DNA of 64,000 bases from Secundilactobacillus hailunensis (GTDB lineage Bacteria > Bacillota > Bacilli > Lactobacillales > Lactobacillaceae): contig NZ_BJDO01000006.1 in assembly GCF_005405185.1 (NCBI RefSeq), positions 1 to 64,000 of the forward strand, read 5' to 3'. A program made the translations under genes and the position numbers. Positions 7,054 through 55,565 of the stretch are shown here, in pieces. Position 1 is the stretch's first letter, and every line of letters begins with the position of its first letter. Below the pieces are notes generated by a model. That model was not told the DNA's origin and did not search any database. It worked only from the letters and a program-made list of their open reading frames with translations.

Positions 7054-7330
7054 AAAAAAAGAAGTCTTCTATCCCATAATCAAGGGACGAAAGACTTCAT
7101 TTCGCGGTACCACCCAAGTTGCCTATCCGTAGATAAGCCACCTCACACGTACAAACATACGCTCCGATGGTAACGTTTCGGTGACGGCGAAGCTTACTTC
7201 AAACTGGTTCAGCCCGCAACTGAGAAAGTGTTATTCAGAAAAGCCGAACACTGATTGGGTTCACACCATTTCCCAACTCACTGACAGGCTGACTTAACTT
7301 ACTTGTCTTTCCTACGTTTTTTAATCTCTA
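7054..7330 (-). ncRNA. T-box leader of asnA
   Basis: The T-box core (GGGTGGTACCGCG on the minus strand, + 7104-7116) is followed by a terminator (gaagtctt...aaagacttc, then seven T). Upstream hairpins form stem I. An AAC triplet (Asn) lies on the 3' side of stem I and fits asnA, but its exact position in the specifier loop is not certain. Confidence 0.9.
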
Positions 7331-26282: not shown

Positions 26283-26508
26283 TGTCGGACTTACAATTAA
26301 GTAGCGTCTTATCTGGGTGTCAGAAAGTTGGCGGTTGCTGCGAGCCAATCAGGGTAAGAAAAGCGAAATACGTAGACGTCGACAATGGTTACCGCTAGAA
26401 TCCATTATCTTCTGGTGAGTGGTGTACAGAAGTGTACACAATTTGGGTGGTACCACGGTAGAGTCTGATCGTCCCTGTTGCAGTTAATGCAATGGGGGCG
26501 ATTTTTTT
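26283..26508 (+). ncRNA. T-box leader of nhaC, probable tyrosine specifier
   Basis: The T-box core TTTGGGTGGTACCACGG (26442-26458) is followed by a terminator (gatcgtccc-tgttgca/tgcaatg-ggggcgat, T7). Stem I closes with tgtcg/cgaca (26283, 26380) and has an apical ttggc/gccaa hairpin. On its 3' side, GAAATACGTAG places TAC (26369-26371) in the specifier position, that is Tyr. Confidence 0.88.
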
Positions 26509-46208: not shown

Positions 46209-46598
46209 ATGGAATTTGATGACAAGGTGCCTATTTATTACCAGATTAAAACGGCTATCTATGATCAAATCATTTCTGGCCAATTAGCACCCGGTGATAA
46301 GCTTCCTGCAATCCGGCAACTGGCAGTGTCCATGACGGTCAATGTAAACACCGTGCAGCGGGCTTTAAGCGAGATGATTACTGAAGGTGTGATCATTTCG
46401 AGACGTGGTCGCGGGAACTTTGTGACTGATAACGCGCAGGTCGTCGAACAGCTGAAGCAGCAGCTAATAACCAGTTATTTAAAGCAACTTTATGATCGGC
46501 TTCATCGGCTGAACATTAGCGATGAACAGATGATTGCCGAATTAACGGTATATATTGAAAGGCAGGGGGATTCAAATGGCAACGACATTGAAGATTGA
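46209..46598 (+). CDS. GntR-family regulator, YtrA subfamily
   Basis: A 129-residue repressor: a GntR winged helix (VPIYYQIKTAIYDQIISGQL, then AIRQLAVSMTVNVNTVQRAL) and only a short ~50-residue helical tail for dimerisation, as in YtrA. AAGGAGGA precedes the ATG. It heads an operon with an ATPase and a permease, and overlaps the ATPase gene by 23 nt. In bacilli such operons respond to cell-wall antibiotics. Confidence 0.92.
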   Translation: MEFDDKVPIYYQIKTAIYDQIISGQLAPGDKLPAIRQLAVSMTVNVNTVQRALSEMITEGVIISRRGRGNFVTDNAQVVEQLKQQLITSYLKQLYDRLHRLNISDEQMIAELTVYIERQGDSNGNDIED

Positions 46599-47289
46599 AC
46601 AGTTGAATTATCGTAAGAACCTCAAGAAAATCTTAACGGATGTGTCCTTATCATTATCGGGGAATAAAATCGTTGGTCTATTAGGTGAGAACGGTGCGGG
46701 TAAAACGACCTTAATGCGCCTGATTGCCGGGCTGGCGAAGAACGCTCGTGGCACGGTCACGATCAACGGTGATAGTAACTTGGCTAACCGCAAAAGTTTG
46801 ATCAGTTACAGTGATCCGTTAGGCGGGATCGCAACTAACAAGCGAATCAGTGACGTTAAACAGTTTTATAGCAGGGTCTATCCTGATTTTGATGAACAGA
46901 AATATACGCAAATGGCGTCGTTTTTAAAACTAGACGAATCGCAGCGCCTATCAGCCTTATCAAAAGGAACCCGGGAAAAATTAGTGATCAGCCTGACGCT
47001 TGCTCGGCAAACGAGTGTGTATTTACTGGATGAACCGTTTAGCGGGATTGACAGCATGAGCCGCAAAAAGATCATTAATAGTATTATTCAGTGGAAACCA
47101 GCTGATTCACTGATGCTCATCAGTGACCACTACGTTTCTGAAATTGCCCCAATCCTAGACGAGATCGTGATTATTAAAGACGATAAGGTTGCCGTACATA
47201 AGGCGGCCGATGAGATTCGTGAAGAAAGCGGTCAGAGTATCGAAGATTATTACGAAAGTTTATATGGGGAGGCTGATATCAATGACTAA
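46576..47289 (+). CDS. ABC transporter ATP-binding protein
   Basis: A 237-residue ATPase with Walker A GENGAGKTT near residue 37, a Q-loop-like SYSDPLG, a variant signature LSKGTREKL and Walker B VYLLDEPFSGID. The SKGT signature is typical of the YtrB/BcrA-like exporters linked to GntR repressors. The ATG at 46576 follows AGGGGG and overlaps the regulator gene. Its 3' end overlaps the permease gene by 8 nt, so all three genes are translationally coupled. Confidence 0.92.
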   Translation: MATTLKIEQLNYRKNLKKILTDVSLSLSGNKIVGLLGENGAGKTTLMRLIAGLAKNARGTVTINGDSNLANRKSLISYSDPLGGIATNKRISDVKQFYSRVYPDFDEQKYTQMASFLKLDESQRLSALSKGTREKLVISLTLARQTSVYLLDEPFSGIDSMSRKKIINSIIQWKPADSLMLISDHYVSEIAPILDEIVIIKDDKVAVHKAADEIREESGQSIEDYYESLYGEADIND

Positions 47290-48040
47290 GTTTACGGCAC
47301 TAGTACCCGCTTTACTGCGGGACAGATTTAAATCAATCAACCGGATCATTGTTTTGTTCCTGGTAGTCGTTGTAGTGAATGGTGTCATGCTGGCCATTCA
47401 AAACGGGGTGGCTAATCTTGGCACCGGGTTAATGGGTGCTATTGGCTTTTGGAGTTCATTAGCCTTCTTGATTGTCTTCATTCGAATGGCCATGTACAAC
47501 GAAAGCGTTTATCAGAGTGATGCCATTCGATTAATTCCGACTAGTGATACTAAAATCTATCTGGGTAGTTTAAGCGCCACGGTTATTGGCATGCTGTATT
47601 TTGGCGTCGTCCAGGCTGTGATCAACGCAATTGTCGCGTTTGCAAGTGGTAACTGGAGTAATTATTTTATGTCTTCAGATGGCGGTCTCAGTACAATGAA
47701 AATCATTGAAATTGTGCTTATGACGCTGTTGATCTTTGTGGCTTCCATCGTGATGGTTTGGACCACGATTTCATTGATTCATTTGATCATTCTAAGTATT
47801 GGCGCATTTCTGCCAATTGGCCGTCAACGGCTAATTCGCGGGATCTTATACATTGTCGTCAGTTTAGCGATTATCCGGACTGCTGTCGGCGTCTTTCATA
47901 TCTACGGCATGGTAATGAGTGGACTTTCAGTTGGCTGGGGGACAGCCTTTGCCAGCCTAGGTGCTATCGTGTTAGTGGCTGTGCTGGAATCAGTTGCTAA
48001 CGTTTTATTAATGAATAAATTCGTTGAAACGGCACAGTAA
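47282..48040 (+). CDS. ABC transporter permease
   Basis: A 252-residue membrane protein with about six hydrophobic segments, an ABC-2-type permease partner of the preceding ATPase. The true start is the ATG at 47282 (GGGGAGG upstream), which overlaps the ATPase stop; longer in-frame extensions have no ribosome site. The substrate is unknown; relatives expel or sense peptide antibiotics acting on the envelope. Confidence 0.88.
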   Translation: MTKFTALVPALLRDRFKSINRIIVLFLVVVVVNGVMLAIQNGVANLGTGLMGAIGFWSSLAFLIVFIRMAMYNESVYQSDAIRLIPTSDTKIYLGSLSATVIGMLYFGVVQAVINAIVAFASGNWSNYFMSSDGGLSTMKIIEIVLMTLLIFVASIVMVWTTISLIHLIILSIGAFLPIGRQRLIRGILYIVVSLAIIRTAVGVFHIYGMVMSGLSVGWGTAFASLGAIVLVAVLESVANVLLMNKFVETAQ

Positions 48041-48049
48041 TTTTGCAGC

Positions 48050-48078
48050 TTGCTTTCTTCTCATTAAATTGTTAAAAT
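48050..48078 (+). promoter_or_regulatory. Promoter of the Phe leader and permease
   Basis: TTGCTT, 17-nt spacer, TAAAAT; transcript start expected near 48085. Confidence 0.7.
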
Positions 48079-48110
48079 ACTCTCATACACAACGAAGGGG
48101 GTGCCACAAT

Positions 48111-48191
48111 ATGCTAATGAATCGGGATCAATTAACGACACAACGATTTTTCTTCTTCTTTAACCAGCCTGGTTATCTACCAGTAAGTTAG
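48111..48191 (+). CDS. Phenylalanine-rich leader peptide
   Basis: A 26-codon ORF with AAGGGGGTG upstream. Codons 13-17 are TTT TTC TTC TTC TTT, five Phe in a row (48147-48161), followed by AACCAGCC and a stop at 48191. The bases 48159-48169, which begin within the last Phe codon, are exactly complementary to 48259-48269. This is the structure of an attenuation leader peptide; translation speed over the Phe codons would set the RNA fold and hence read-through into the permease gene. Confidence 0.8.
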   Translation: MLMNRDQLTTQRFFFFFNQPGYLPVS

Positions 48192-48304
48192 AGAAGTTGC
48201 TATTGGCATGGCACTTACACTTACGGTCAGACGGCTAGGCGAAACGCTTGGGCTGTCTGGCTGGTTAAAAACACCAGCGGACAACGTGGTCCCTGGTGTT
48301 TTTT
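48159..48304 (+). promoter_or_regulatory. Attenuator with competing stems and terminator
   Basis: Three exclusive pairings: TTTAACCAGCC (48159-48169) with GGCTGGTTAAA (48259-48269); GCTGGT (48260-48265) with ACCAGC (48273-48278), an antiterminator; and ACACCAG (48271-48277) with CTGGTGT (48293-48299) plus T6, the terminator. A hairpin of GACGGCTAGGCG with CGCTTGGGCTGTC lies between. Confidence 0.8.
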
Positions 48305-48360
48305 GTTTGGCTGATCGTTGGTGTTCACGGTTTGATTGAAAGTCATGAGGAGGAACAGGT

Positions 48361-49770
48361 ATGGAGAACACAACGGTCTCAAAAATATTTGGTCGACTAA
48401 CTAAAAAAGAGTCACTCGACCGGTATCTAGATAAGGATAGTTTATTAGAAAAGTCGATGGACGCTAAGGATCTGTTATTACTGGGAGTTGGTACCGTGAT
48501 TGGAACGGGGATCTTTATTCTTCCCGGTACGGTTGCGGCTTTATATAGCGGGCCCGGGATCGTTTTATCATTTGTTTTAGCAGCCTTAGTCTGTGCCACC
48601 GCTGCCATGTGTTACGCGGAATTTTCATCCGCGTTACCCGTTGCCGGCAGTGCCTATTCATACGGGAACATTGTGTTCGGTGAATTTATTGGCTGGGTGA
48701 TTGGCTGGGCGCTGGTCCTGGAGTACATGTTATCCGTGGCGGCCGTTTCTACTGGCTGGTCGGCTTATTTGGTGTCATTTTTAAAGGGTGTTGGTATTAC
48801 GGTACCTAAGGCGATTACCGGCAGCTTCGATCCAGCTCACGGCACTTATTTCAATTTATTTGCAATTCTGATCGTGCTGGCTATTAGTTTATTGCTGACC
48901 CAGGGCGTTAAAACGACTACCCGAATCAATAACATTATTGTGGTGGCTAAAATCTTCATTATTCTATTGTTTGTGGTTGTTGGTATTTTCTACGTCAAAC
49001 CAAGTAACTGGCATCCATTTGCGCCATATGGTGCTCATGGAATCATGCGGGGCGCTTCATTAGTGTTCTATGCCTATCTAGGGTTTGACTGTGTTTCGGC
49101 TTCCGCAGCGGAAGTGAAGAATCCGCGGCGCAACATGCCAATCGGTATTTTGGGGACCCTGATCATCTGTACGATACTCTACATGGCAGTTGCCGCTGTC
49201 TTAACTGGGATGGTCTCTTATACAAAATTAAACGTGGCTGCACCAGTTTCCTTTGCACTGCAAATCGTGAACCAAAACTGGGTTGCTGGCGTCGTTTCAA
49301 TTGGGGCTTTAGCCGGAATGTTCACGATGATGCTCTCGATGATCTATAGTTCGTCACGGCTGATCTATTCCATTGGCCGGGACGGTCTATTACCTAAGGG
49401 TTTAGGGAAAATCAGTATGAAACACCAAGTGCCTAGTCATGGTTTGCTGGCGGTCACCATCGTGATTGCCATCATGGGTGGCTTGGTCTCATTAGACCGG
49501 TTAACTCAGTTAGTTAACATTGGAACCTTAATTGCCTTCACCATGATGTCCTTGGGTGTGTTGCCATTACGGAAACGTAAAGACATTGCCAATACGGGCT
49601 TCAAGGTCCCGTTATATCCATATCTGCCGATCATTTCTGCTGGGCTATGCATCTGGATGCTACTCCAGTTGCCTTTAGAGACCTGGGTCGTTTCCGGTAT
49701 CTGGTTTGCTATTGGCGTCATTATTTACGCAACCTATGGCGTTTGGCACAGTCAATTACGTAAAAATTAA
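48361..49770 (+). CDS. APC-family amino-acid permease (YfnA/CAT-like)
   Basis: A 469-residue permease with about 12 membrane helices. The conserved GVGTVIGTGIFILPG is in helix 1, and the family pattern FYAYLGFDCVSASAAEVKNPRRNMPIGI in the middle is characteristic of the cationic amino acid transporter group (YfnA, BcaP), whose members move branched-chain, aromatic or basic amino acids. GAGGAGG precedes the ATG. The Phe-rich attenuator upstream suggests phenylalanine is a substrate. It is monocistronic. Confidence 0.9.
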   Translation: MENTTVSKIFGRLTKKESLDRYLDKDSLLEKSMDAKDLLLLGVGTVIGTGIFILPGTVAALYSGPGIVLSFVLAALVCATAAMCYAEFSSALPVAGSAYSYGNIVFGEFIGWVIGWALVLEYMLSVAAVSTGWSAYLVSFLKGVGITVPKAITGSFDPAHGTYFNLFAILIVLAISLLLTQGVKTTTRINNIIVVAKIFIILLFVVVGIFYVKPSNWHPFAPYGAHGIMRGASLVFYAYLGFDCVSASAAEVKNPRRNMPIGILGTLIICTILYMAVAAVLTGMVSYTKLNVAAPVSFALQIVNQNWVAGVVSIGALAGMFTMMLSMIYSSSRLIYSIGRDGLLPKGLGKISMKHQVPSHGLLAVTIVIAIMGGLVSLDRLTQLVNIGTLIAFTMMSLGVLPLRKRKDIANTGFKVPLYPYLPIISAGLCIWMLLQLPLETWVVSGIWFAIGVIIYATYGVWHSQLRKN

Positions 49771-49777
49771 ATTCAAC

Positions 49778-49829
49778 TAAAAATGGCTGACTCGGTAATC
49801 TTTCAAGATTACTGAGTCAGTCATTTTTT
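49778..49829. terminator. Terminator between the permease and LCP genes
   Basis: Stem aaaaatggctgactcggtaatctt/aagattactgagtcagtcattttt, bidirectional. Confidence 0.92.
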
Positions 49830-55296: not shown

Positions 55297-55565
55297 AAAA
55301 ATACCCTTTAAGCCATCTCTGACTTAAAGGGCACGTGTGCGTTACCACCTTTATGTTTTCCACTCGTCACCAAGTGGAACTTACGATCTGCAAACACAGA
55401 TCCAAGTTGATAACGGAGATTGACTCCGTTTTTAATTACTAGTTACCGTTCATCAAAAATGCTTCGAGGTGATTGGCTGGTACGATTGTCCGCTTACACC
55501 AAACCGAACTCGCTTATGGTGTACCAACGCTGTCCTCGTTAACGCAATTGCTTATCGAATTGACA
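55297..55565 (-). ncRNA. T-box leader of panE, probable isoleucine specifier
   Basis: On the minus strand the T-box core is AAGGTGGTAACGC (+ 55351-55339), followed by the terminator CCCTTTAAG/CTTAAAGGG with T-rich tail (55332-55297). Stem I has CGAGG/CCTCG at its base and GTTGGTAC/GTACCAGC above it. The 3' internal loop between them is CAATCA, placing ATC (Ile; + 55473-55471) as specifier. Confidence 0.88.

Follow-up and report, generated by a model that had tools for sequence, protein, structure and literature searches.

How is the amino-acid permease gene at 48361–49770 of this DNA switched on, and what do the roughly 310 nt in front of it (48050–48360, the leader) contribute to that decision? 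The leader lies between a GntR/ABC-type gene set and the permease, within a window of 64,000 nt, the whole stretch of DNA analysed here. Its host is a Secundilactobacillus close to S. silagei, and the two permeases are 99% identical. An earlier note on this DNA had proposed that a ribosome stalled at phenylalanine (Phe) codons in a short leader open reading frame (ORF) decides between termination and read-through. Comparison of 19 related leaders suggests that the region is most probably a translation-coupled transcription attenuator sensing the supply of Phe-tRNA, and the class of mechanism named earlier is very probably correct. What the comparison shows directly is the ORF and its conservation, together with helices that exclude one another and covary. 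The parts of the leader, each with its evidence, are the following, where P1 is a helix over the leader's ribosome-binding site (RBS) and numbers such as 1:2 denote the helix between two segments.

48050–48078, + strand: putative leader promoter (TTGCTT, 17-nt spacer, TAAAAT preceded by TG), top match of a scan upstream of the leader ORF
48096–48101, + strand: predicted RBS of the leader ORF, AGGGGG, from the sequence
48099–48117, + strand: P1 5' strand (RBS end and start-codon region), partner 48203–48216, from strand swap and shuffled strands
48111–48191, + strand: leader ORF of 26 codons, MLMNRDQLTTQRFFFFFNQPGYLPVS, from orthologous ORFs in 19 leaders
48147–48161, + strand: the five Phe codons, presumed regulatory, from codon counts and leader peptides
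48155–48164, + strand: segment 1, the last Phe codons and the next three bases, partner 48187–48196 (1:2), from pair counts and shuffled strands
48167–48196, + strand: segment 2 (48167–48174, 48179–48188, 48187–48196), from codons 3' of the Phe run to beyond the stop codon, partner of segment 1 or 3
48203–48216, + strand: P1 3' strand, able to sequester the leader's RBS, from strand swap and shuffled strands
48219–48240, + strand: segment 3; in helix 2:3, 48219–48227 pairs with 48179–48188 and 48233–48240 with 48167–48174
48224–48235, + strand: part of segment 3, 5' arm of hairpin 3:4, partner 48252–48263
48252–48265, + strand: segment 4, 3' arm of hairpin 3:4 (48252–48263) and 5' strand of the antiterminator (48255–48258, 48260–48265), from strand swap and pair counts
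48273–48282, + strand: segment 5, 3' strand of the antiterminator (ACCAGC, GGAC) and also 5' arm of the terminator; the antiterminator covaries
48267–48304, + strand: intrinsic terminator 5:6 with its T run (T at 48299–48304), from folding
48361–49770, + strand: presumed regulated gene, a BcaP-like amino-acid permease of the APC superfamily, from NF053761, PF13520 and a structure match

Is the ORF the sensor? The ORF, its RBS and the five Phe codons were all found where the earlier note had placed them. A start codon, a Shine-Dalgarno (SD)-like site with 4–6 of 6 matches to AGGAGG and a Phe run are present in 19/19 leaders, the start being taken as the in-frame ATG with the best SD-like site; one mark of an attenuator, a short ORF that can be translated and contains repeated codons for the amino acid sensed, is thereby predicted from sequence in every leader. 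The run reads FFFFF or F-x-FFF in 16 of the 19, FFFF in two (S. yichangensis and S. oryzae) and FFF in one (S. malefermentans). In nine leaders its second position is Ser, Tyr or Asn, with the preceding Phe retained. Upstream, the second promoter hexamer ends 31–32 nt before the ATG in 15/19 leaders and 29 nt before it in one, the scan choosing another best site in the other three. A run of five TTY codons is found at five sites in the 2.7-Mb genome (three for a reversed-pattern control), and the other four sites lie opposite open stretches of 115, 507, 501 and 697 codons. The leader with its Phe run exceeds chance, and two genera share its combination of Phe run, antiterminator and terminator.

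The same data bear on a switch made of RNA only, in which a metabolite, a tRNA or a protein would bind the leader and the ORF would be incidental. The leader is densely structured, and its later Phe codons are paired in helix 1:2, so that their conservation may partly act at the RNA level; the first of the five Phe codons, however, lies outside this helix and is nevertheless kept in 16/19 leaders. Moreover, in a scan with 4227 Rfam families none covers the leader, T-box included, and only a T-box elsewhere in the window reaches its gathering score. Given an ORF, start codon and SD-like site in every leader, we regard the RNA-only switch as very unlikely, the least credible explanation considered.

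If the codons matter, does the peptide? The leader peptide is variable before the Phe run and after a conserved FFF-[NK]-x-P motif, and its endings include PVS, KVS, QVS, KMS, KRS, LAY and LVD. This motif would suit an antibiotic-inducible or arrest-peptide leader, in which the nascent peptide or a drug-stalled ribosome drives the switch rather than a shortage of tRNA-Phe, and leaders of these types are known in Firmicutes (PMC2965389, which mentions ermC; PMC6310831). However, helix 2:3 accounts for the conserved NxP codons, the peptide beyond the motif is not conserved and in S. collinoides is read in another frame, and the downstream gene encodes an amino-acid permease rather than a resistance protein. 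A leader of either type is for these reasons highly improbable. In S. collinoides (L040) a single inserted base shifts the frame through segment 2, so that the peptide ends in QTSKLEKMS and not in QPVS, while the RNA there is unchanged; the attenuator reading is consistent with this, since the frameshift points to selection on the codons within the run and on RNA pairing behind it. The variable sites by codon position in seven close species (8, 6 and 11) are too few to add much. The leaders of S. collinoides and of G009 (L015) both have a frame after the Phe run that differs from that of their relatives, with the stop codon further downstream.

Which helices, then, do the leaders preserve? The comparison supports a set of alternating helices resembling that of the enterobacterial his attenuator: 1:2, 2:3, 3:4, 4:5 (the antiterminator) and 5:6 (the terminator). 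The 19 leaders exclude L115 and L116, identical to L044 and L050, and the G038 leader, which was kept out as a check. In a strand-swap test, the pairing of each leader's own strands was compared with that of strands exchanged among 14 representative leaders (5000 permutations, kinship ignored), and ten divergent leaders formed a second set. For P1, the first part of 2:3, 3:4, 4:5 and 5:6, none of the 5000 permutations was as good, and the second part of 2:3 gave p=0.0026. None of the controls A:C, A:D, B:Dt, N:C, B:E and d:E reached significance, the lowest p being 0.066; the control a:C did (0/5000) and is not a clean control, because its second window overlaps the P1 3' strand. In the test against shuffled strands, 1:2 and 3:4 are significant at p<=0.05 in 19/19 leaders, P1 and the second part of 2:3 in 18/19. 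The P1 failure is S. oryzae, explained by an upstream ATG having been taken as its start; its fold nevertheless shows P1-type pairing.

Pair counts over the 19-sequence alignment give the same picture. They cover the second part of 2:3, as bulges shift the register of the first part between species, and there 98.5% of cells are paired, with three pairs changed on both sides; the antiterminator has 92.1% paired and two such pairs, and 1:2 and 3:4 have 97.4% and 95.2%. The second part of 2:3 and the antiterminator are jointly 95.5% paired, and 1:2 with 3:4 jointly 96.2%; in neither case did any of 500 shuffles match the covariation score. Examples of compensatory exchange are GCCTRGC:GCTAGGC in Secundilactobacillus, replaced by ACCCAG:CTGGGT in Latilactobacillus, and CCAGTAAGT:ACTTACGG, whose counterparts are CCAGTTAGT:ACTAATGG in S. 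mixtipabuli and CTGGTTGATTAAGG:CCTTAATGAATTGG in L. graminis. A further candidate, a separate pseudoknot between the NxP codons and the loop of hairpin 3:4, was dropped when folding with a masked ribosome placed these pairs collinear with the rest of 2:3, in one nested helix.

At the 3' end, the leader folds into the terminator 5:6 in 19/19 cases (-17.8 to -28.2 kcal/mol). The short antiterminator of the earlier note, GCTGGT (48260–48265) with ACCAGC (48273–48278), competes with it, and both are conserved and covary across the leaders. The antiterminator is extended in most leaders, hairpin 3:4 having a 3' arm that is complementary to the inner terminator (GTCT:GGAC; CTTC:GAAG in Latilactobacillus), which fits an ON state with hairpin 3:4 open; the extended form was matched by 0/5000 permutations, and in S. 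silagei, S. malefermentans and S. oryzae the extension is paired differently. Helices and covariation together thus display the second mark of an attenuator, a terminator and an antiterminator that exclude each other, with a strand near the codons deciding between them. The held-out G038 leader, in which the five helices other than P1 were checked, retains 1:2, 2:3, 3:4, 4:5 and 5:6.

The part of the earlier note that did not survive is its OFF-state partner. There, TTTAACCAGCC (48159–48169) was to pair with GGCTGGTTAAA (48259–48269), and a stalled ribosome masking the first strand would free the antiterminator. The two strands are indeed exact complements in the window, and the 11-bp helix appears in the minimum-energy fold of the window's leader with a ribosome stalled at the first Phe codon, a point in favour of this wiring. 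Pairing at -17.8 kcal/mol or better is found in 8/19 leaders, with p<=0.05, and also p<=0.01, against shuffled strands in 9/19. Nevertheless, 10 of the 19 leaders have no comparable pairing, S. silagei, the closest relative, breaks the helix twice (differing at 48165 and 48260), and the held-out leader lacks it. The paired cells (70.1%) equal the shuffled mean (70.1%), the covariation score is matched by 135/500 shuffles, and the swap p of 0.011 on the 14 representatives rises to 0.13 on the ten divergent leaders. Furthermore, a ribosome at the first Phe codon would leave 48161–48169 exposed under the footprint assumed below. Strand swap, shuffling, pair counts and the inspection of S. silagei led us to reject the helix as a general OFF partner. 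As the wiring of the switch it is very unlikely; it could serve as an extra OFF element in one subclade. The conserved partners are others: the antiterminator strand lies in hairpin 3:4 (48224–48235 with 48252–48263) and the Phe strand pairs with 48187–48196, while helix 2:3 and P1 were both absent from the earlier wiring. Of the original proposal, ribosome-mediated attenuation by a Phe leader peptide, the antiterminator and the terminator are supported. Likewise, the alignment across related species that had been suggested as a check returned conserved Phe codons and compensatory changes in most stems, the 11-bp helix excepted. That the alternating helices hold in the clades compared, where the 11-bp helix does not, is in our reading of the alignments a stronger argument than the swap statistics.

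How would such a leader work? The order of events, the tRNA-Phe signal and the role of P1 described here are what we infer from this anatomy. When Phe is plentiful, or when no ribosome is present, segment 2 would lie under a ribosome at the stop codon or in 1:2 with the Phe codons, hairpin 3:4 would hold segment 4, and the terminator 5:6 would form, ending transcription before the permease. When Phe-tRNA is short, a ribosome waiting at the first Phe codons would mask segment 1. Segment 2 (48167–48188) and segment 3 (48219–48240) would then form one composite helix which, its two parts being collinear, would exclude both 1:2 and 3:4; the freed segment 4 would join segment 5 in the antiterminator, and the polymerase would read through into the permease. 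P1 would pair the leader's RBS with the segment lying between 2 and 3. As this excludes 2:3 by topology, P1 should hold an untranslated leader OFF and limit repeated translation.

To compare these states, we folded the RNA with a masked ribosome, before the 3' arm of the terminator exists, assuming a footprint of 13 nt beyond the first base of the A-site codon; values are means over the 19 leaders, and the windows for the segment 2 and 3 regions overlap by 0–3 bases. With the 5' end occupied, the pairs between these two regions average 20.8 when the ribosome sits on the first Phe codon and 1.1 when it is at the stop (0.6 with no ribosome). Antiterminator pairs average 6.0 on the first Phe codon, 2.6 at the stop and 3.3 with no ribosome. 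With the ribosome on the last Phe codon, the rounded antiterminator pairs rise in 16/19 leaders, stay equal in one and fall in two.

Several results weigh against this account of the switch. From the stop to the first Phe codon, with the 5' end occupied, the rounded antiterminator pairs rise in 14/19 leaders, stay equal in two (S. silagincola and L. fuchuensis) and fall in three (S. mixtipabuli and two Latilactobacillus), and in the leader of the window itself they rise only from 0 to 2; its minimum-energy fold under this stall is also the one that contains the 11-bp helix. Since P1 competes with 2:3 when the 5' end is free, the means then contrast only weakly (4.4 against 3.4), and on the model a second ribosome, or the stalled one by its bulk, is required to keep P1 open. 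In five Latilactobacillus leaders the antiterminator has, as long as the terminator arm has not been made, a probability of 0.57–0.96 in all states. In the full-length RNA the terminator prevails in every state; S. malefermentans and S. oryzae under stall are the exceptions. Control must therefore be kinetic. Among the helices, covariation of 1:2 is weak (strand swap p=0.081 on 14 leaders, 0.024 on the ten divergent ones), the base of hairpin 3:4 alone (C-base:D) is not significant in the swap (p=0.21 and 0.30), the first part of 2:3 reaches p<=0.05 against shuffled strands in 15/19 only, and kinship may colour all swap statistics. Finally, the permease family is known for branched-chain substrates. 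Taken globally, the anatomy is strong and the folding energetics agree with it in broad terms only.

What does the leader control, and how far does it extend? A covariance model built from the 19 leaders matched 20 of the 397 Lactobacillaceae genomes searched, which belong to only 2 of the 40 genera: 14/15 Secundilactobacillus and 6/6 Latilactobacillus. In the other 38 genera sampled there was no match under the strict filters used, and an order-wide search of 395 genomes from 80 genera gave five matches, all in the same two genera; in both searches the filters can lose weak relatives. Part of the genus assignment was made by sequence, through permease matches to named Secundilactobacillus and two leaders identical to named Latilactobacillus. 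A separate motif search matched 22/397 family genomes, three of them, in genus g24, by chance; these and a match in G010:C5 were dropped for their unrelated sequence context.

The downstream gene is the same permease wherever it was read. A tree of 86 permeases groups the 18 leader-bearing rows in one clade (support 100/98), which adjoins leaderless copies of Liquorilactobacillus and Ligilactobacillus; the G009 permease, fragmented in its contig, was excluded. A Secundilactobacillus paralogue of about 67% identity lies elsewhere in the tree and has no such leader. The only Secundilactobacillus genome without the leader (G004) also has no close permease, its best copy falling in a leaderless paralogue clade.

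Some individual loci have features of their own. In S. silagincola an IS605/TnpB-type element (PF12323; PF01385 with PF07282) sits at L033:1138–2348, between an intact-looking leader (652–860) and the permease (2501), so that attenuator and gene are naturally uncoupled there. The Latilactobacillus loci L114, L118 and L050 carry extra, repeated-looking bases (AGTGCG..., TTTGA...) between terminator and permease, unlike L. fuchuensis. In the window, a 20-bp terminator-like hairpin (49782–49825) directly follows the permease, so that the attenuator may control a single gene. On the other side, 46209–48040 encodes a GntR-family regulator and an ABC ATPase, then a 253-aa protein without family match, in an arrangement that resembles PmtR/PmtA by sub-cut-off profile matches only.

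What would the permease carry, and what would the leader sense? The permease matches PF13520, its best sequence match among solved structures is 5oqt, and against NF053761 (BcaP) it scores 613.6 bits, under the cut-off of 690, which makes it a relative rather than a named member. BcaP of Lactococcus, which is controlled by CodY, transports methionine and some cysteine besides branched-chain amino acids (PMC7058034). Among positions that separate the leader-bearing clade, as possible substrate determinants, only one weak site emerged, F167. The codons by themselves make import of Phe plausible, and they point to tRNA-Phe as the signal. Prephenate dehydratase is present in 15/15 Secundilactobacillus genomes searched.

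The host genome has 40 T-box matches (RF00230), none at the leader. The earlier note had counted three in the window, and three are matched, at 7080–7323 (- strand, 96.6 bits), 26292–26479 (+ strand, 70.4) and 55324–55551 (- strand, 66.5), the first alone being above the Rfam gathering score. Another precedes pheS in the same genome (G000:C47:11477–11701; L141:1501–1725), with UUC at what we take to be the specifier position. The cell thus seems to monitor tRNA-Phe twice over, using a T-box at pheS and leader translation at the permease.

With confidence only a little better than even, we go one step further and propose a single origin of this his-type six-segment attenuator within Lactobacillaceae, independent of enterobacteria and coupled to one permease subfamily, with two genera now sharing it. 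Its coding sequence would be both sensor and the source of two alternative helix partners, the RBS helix would make translation of an idle leader rare, and tRNA-Phe would be sensed by the T-box at pheS and by translation at the permease, a BcaP-like Phe transporter. What makes the locus interesting is how complete it is, its link to a single permease subfamily and how sharply it can be tested. In a group where T-boxes are common, it contributes a well-supported attenuator of the amino-acid leader-peptide kind and gives the permease a testable substrate; and, as none of the Rfam families covers it, the leader is ready for definition as an RNA family.

How does it compare with known systems? The leader has no detected relation to known leader families: an Rfam scan of it with E up to 5 gave none of them, Phe_leader and His_leader included, and only isrJ far below its gathering score. 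We found no description of a Phe leader peptide in Lactobacillaceae in open-access titles and abstract openings, and reports may exist. The leader-peptide strategy is well known from enterobacteria and, to our knowledge, rarely reported in lactobacilli. The enterobacterial his attenuator has six segments (A–F) in alternating helices; the present leader resembles it in its six alternating segments, in the regulatory codons within segment 1 and in the predicted termination of untranslated RNA, and differs in that its codons are for Phe and not His, in standing before a transporter gene rather than a biosynthetic operon, in matching no Rfam leader family and in having an added RBS helix. The pheA and pheST leaders of E. 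coli (Phe_leader in Rfam) encode a short Phe-rich peptide and respond to Phe-tRNA. A short Phe-rich peptide and presumably the same signal are found here, with no Rfam match, a longer cascade, another gene and another phylum.

Closer in phylogeny are the leader peptides of Firmicutes, hisZ/hisS* of bacilli (PMC2965389) and ilv-leu of Staphylococcus aureus, for which predicted branched-chain leaders in Lactococcus and Streptococcus are also cited (PMC5794164). They share translation-coupled attenuation in a T-box-rich phylum, already predicted in other Lactobacillales; they are set apart by His, Leu or Ile codons and by synthetase or biosynthetic genes. The nearest comparison lies within the same genome. 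Like the permease leader, the pheS T-box presumably senses tRNA-Phe supply and acts through a terminator. In contrast, a T-box binds uncharged tRNA directly and needs no leader ORF, and the two presumed tRNA-Phe sensors offer a natural comparison within one cell.

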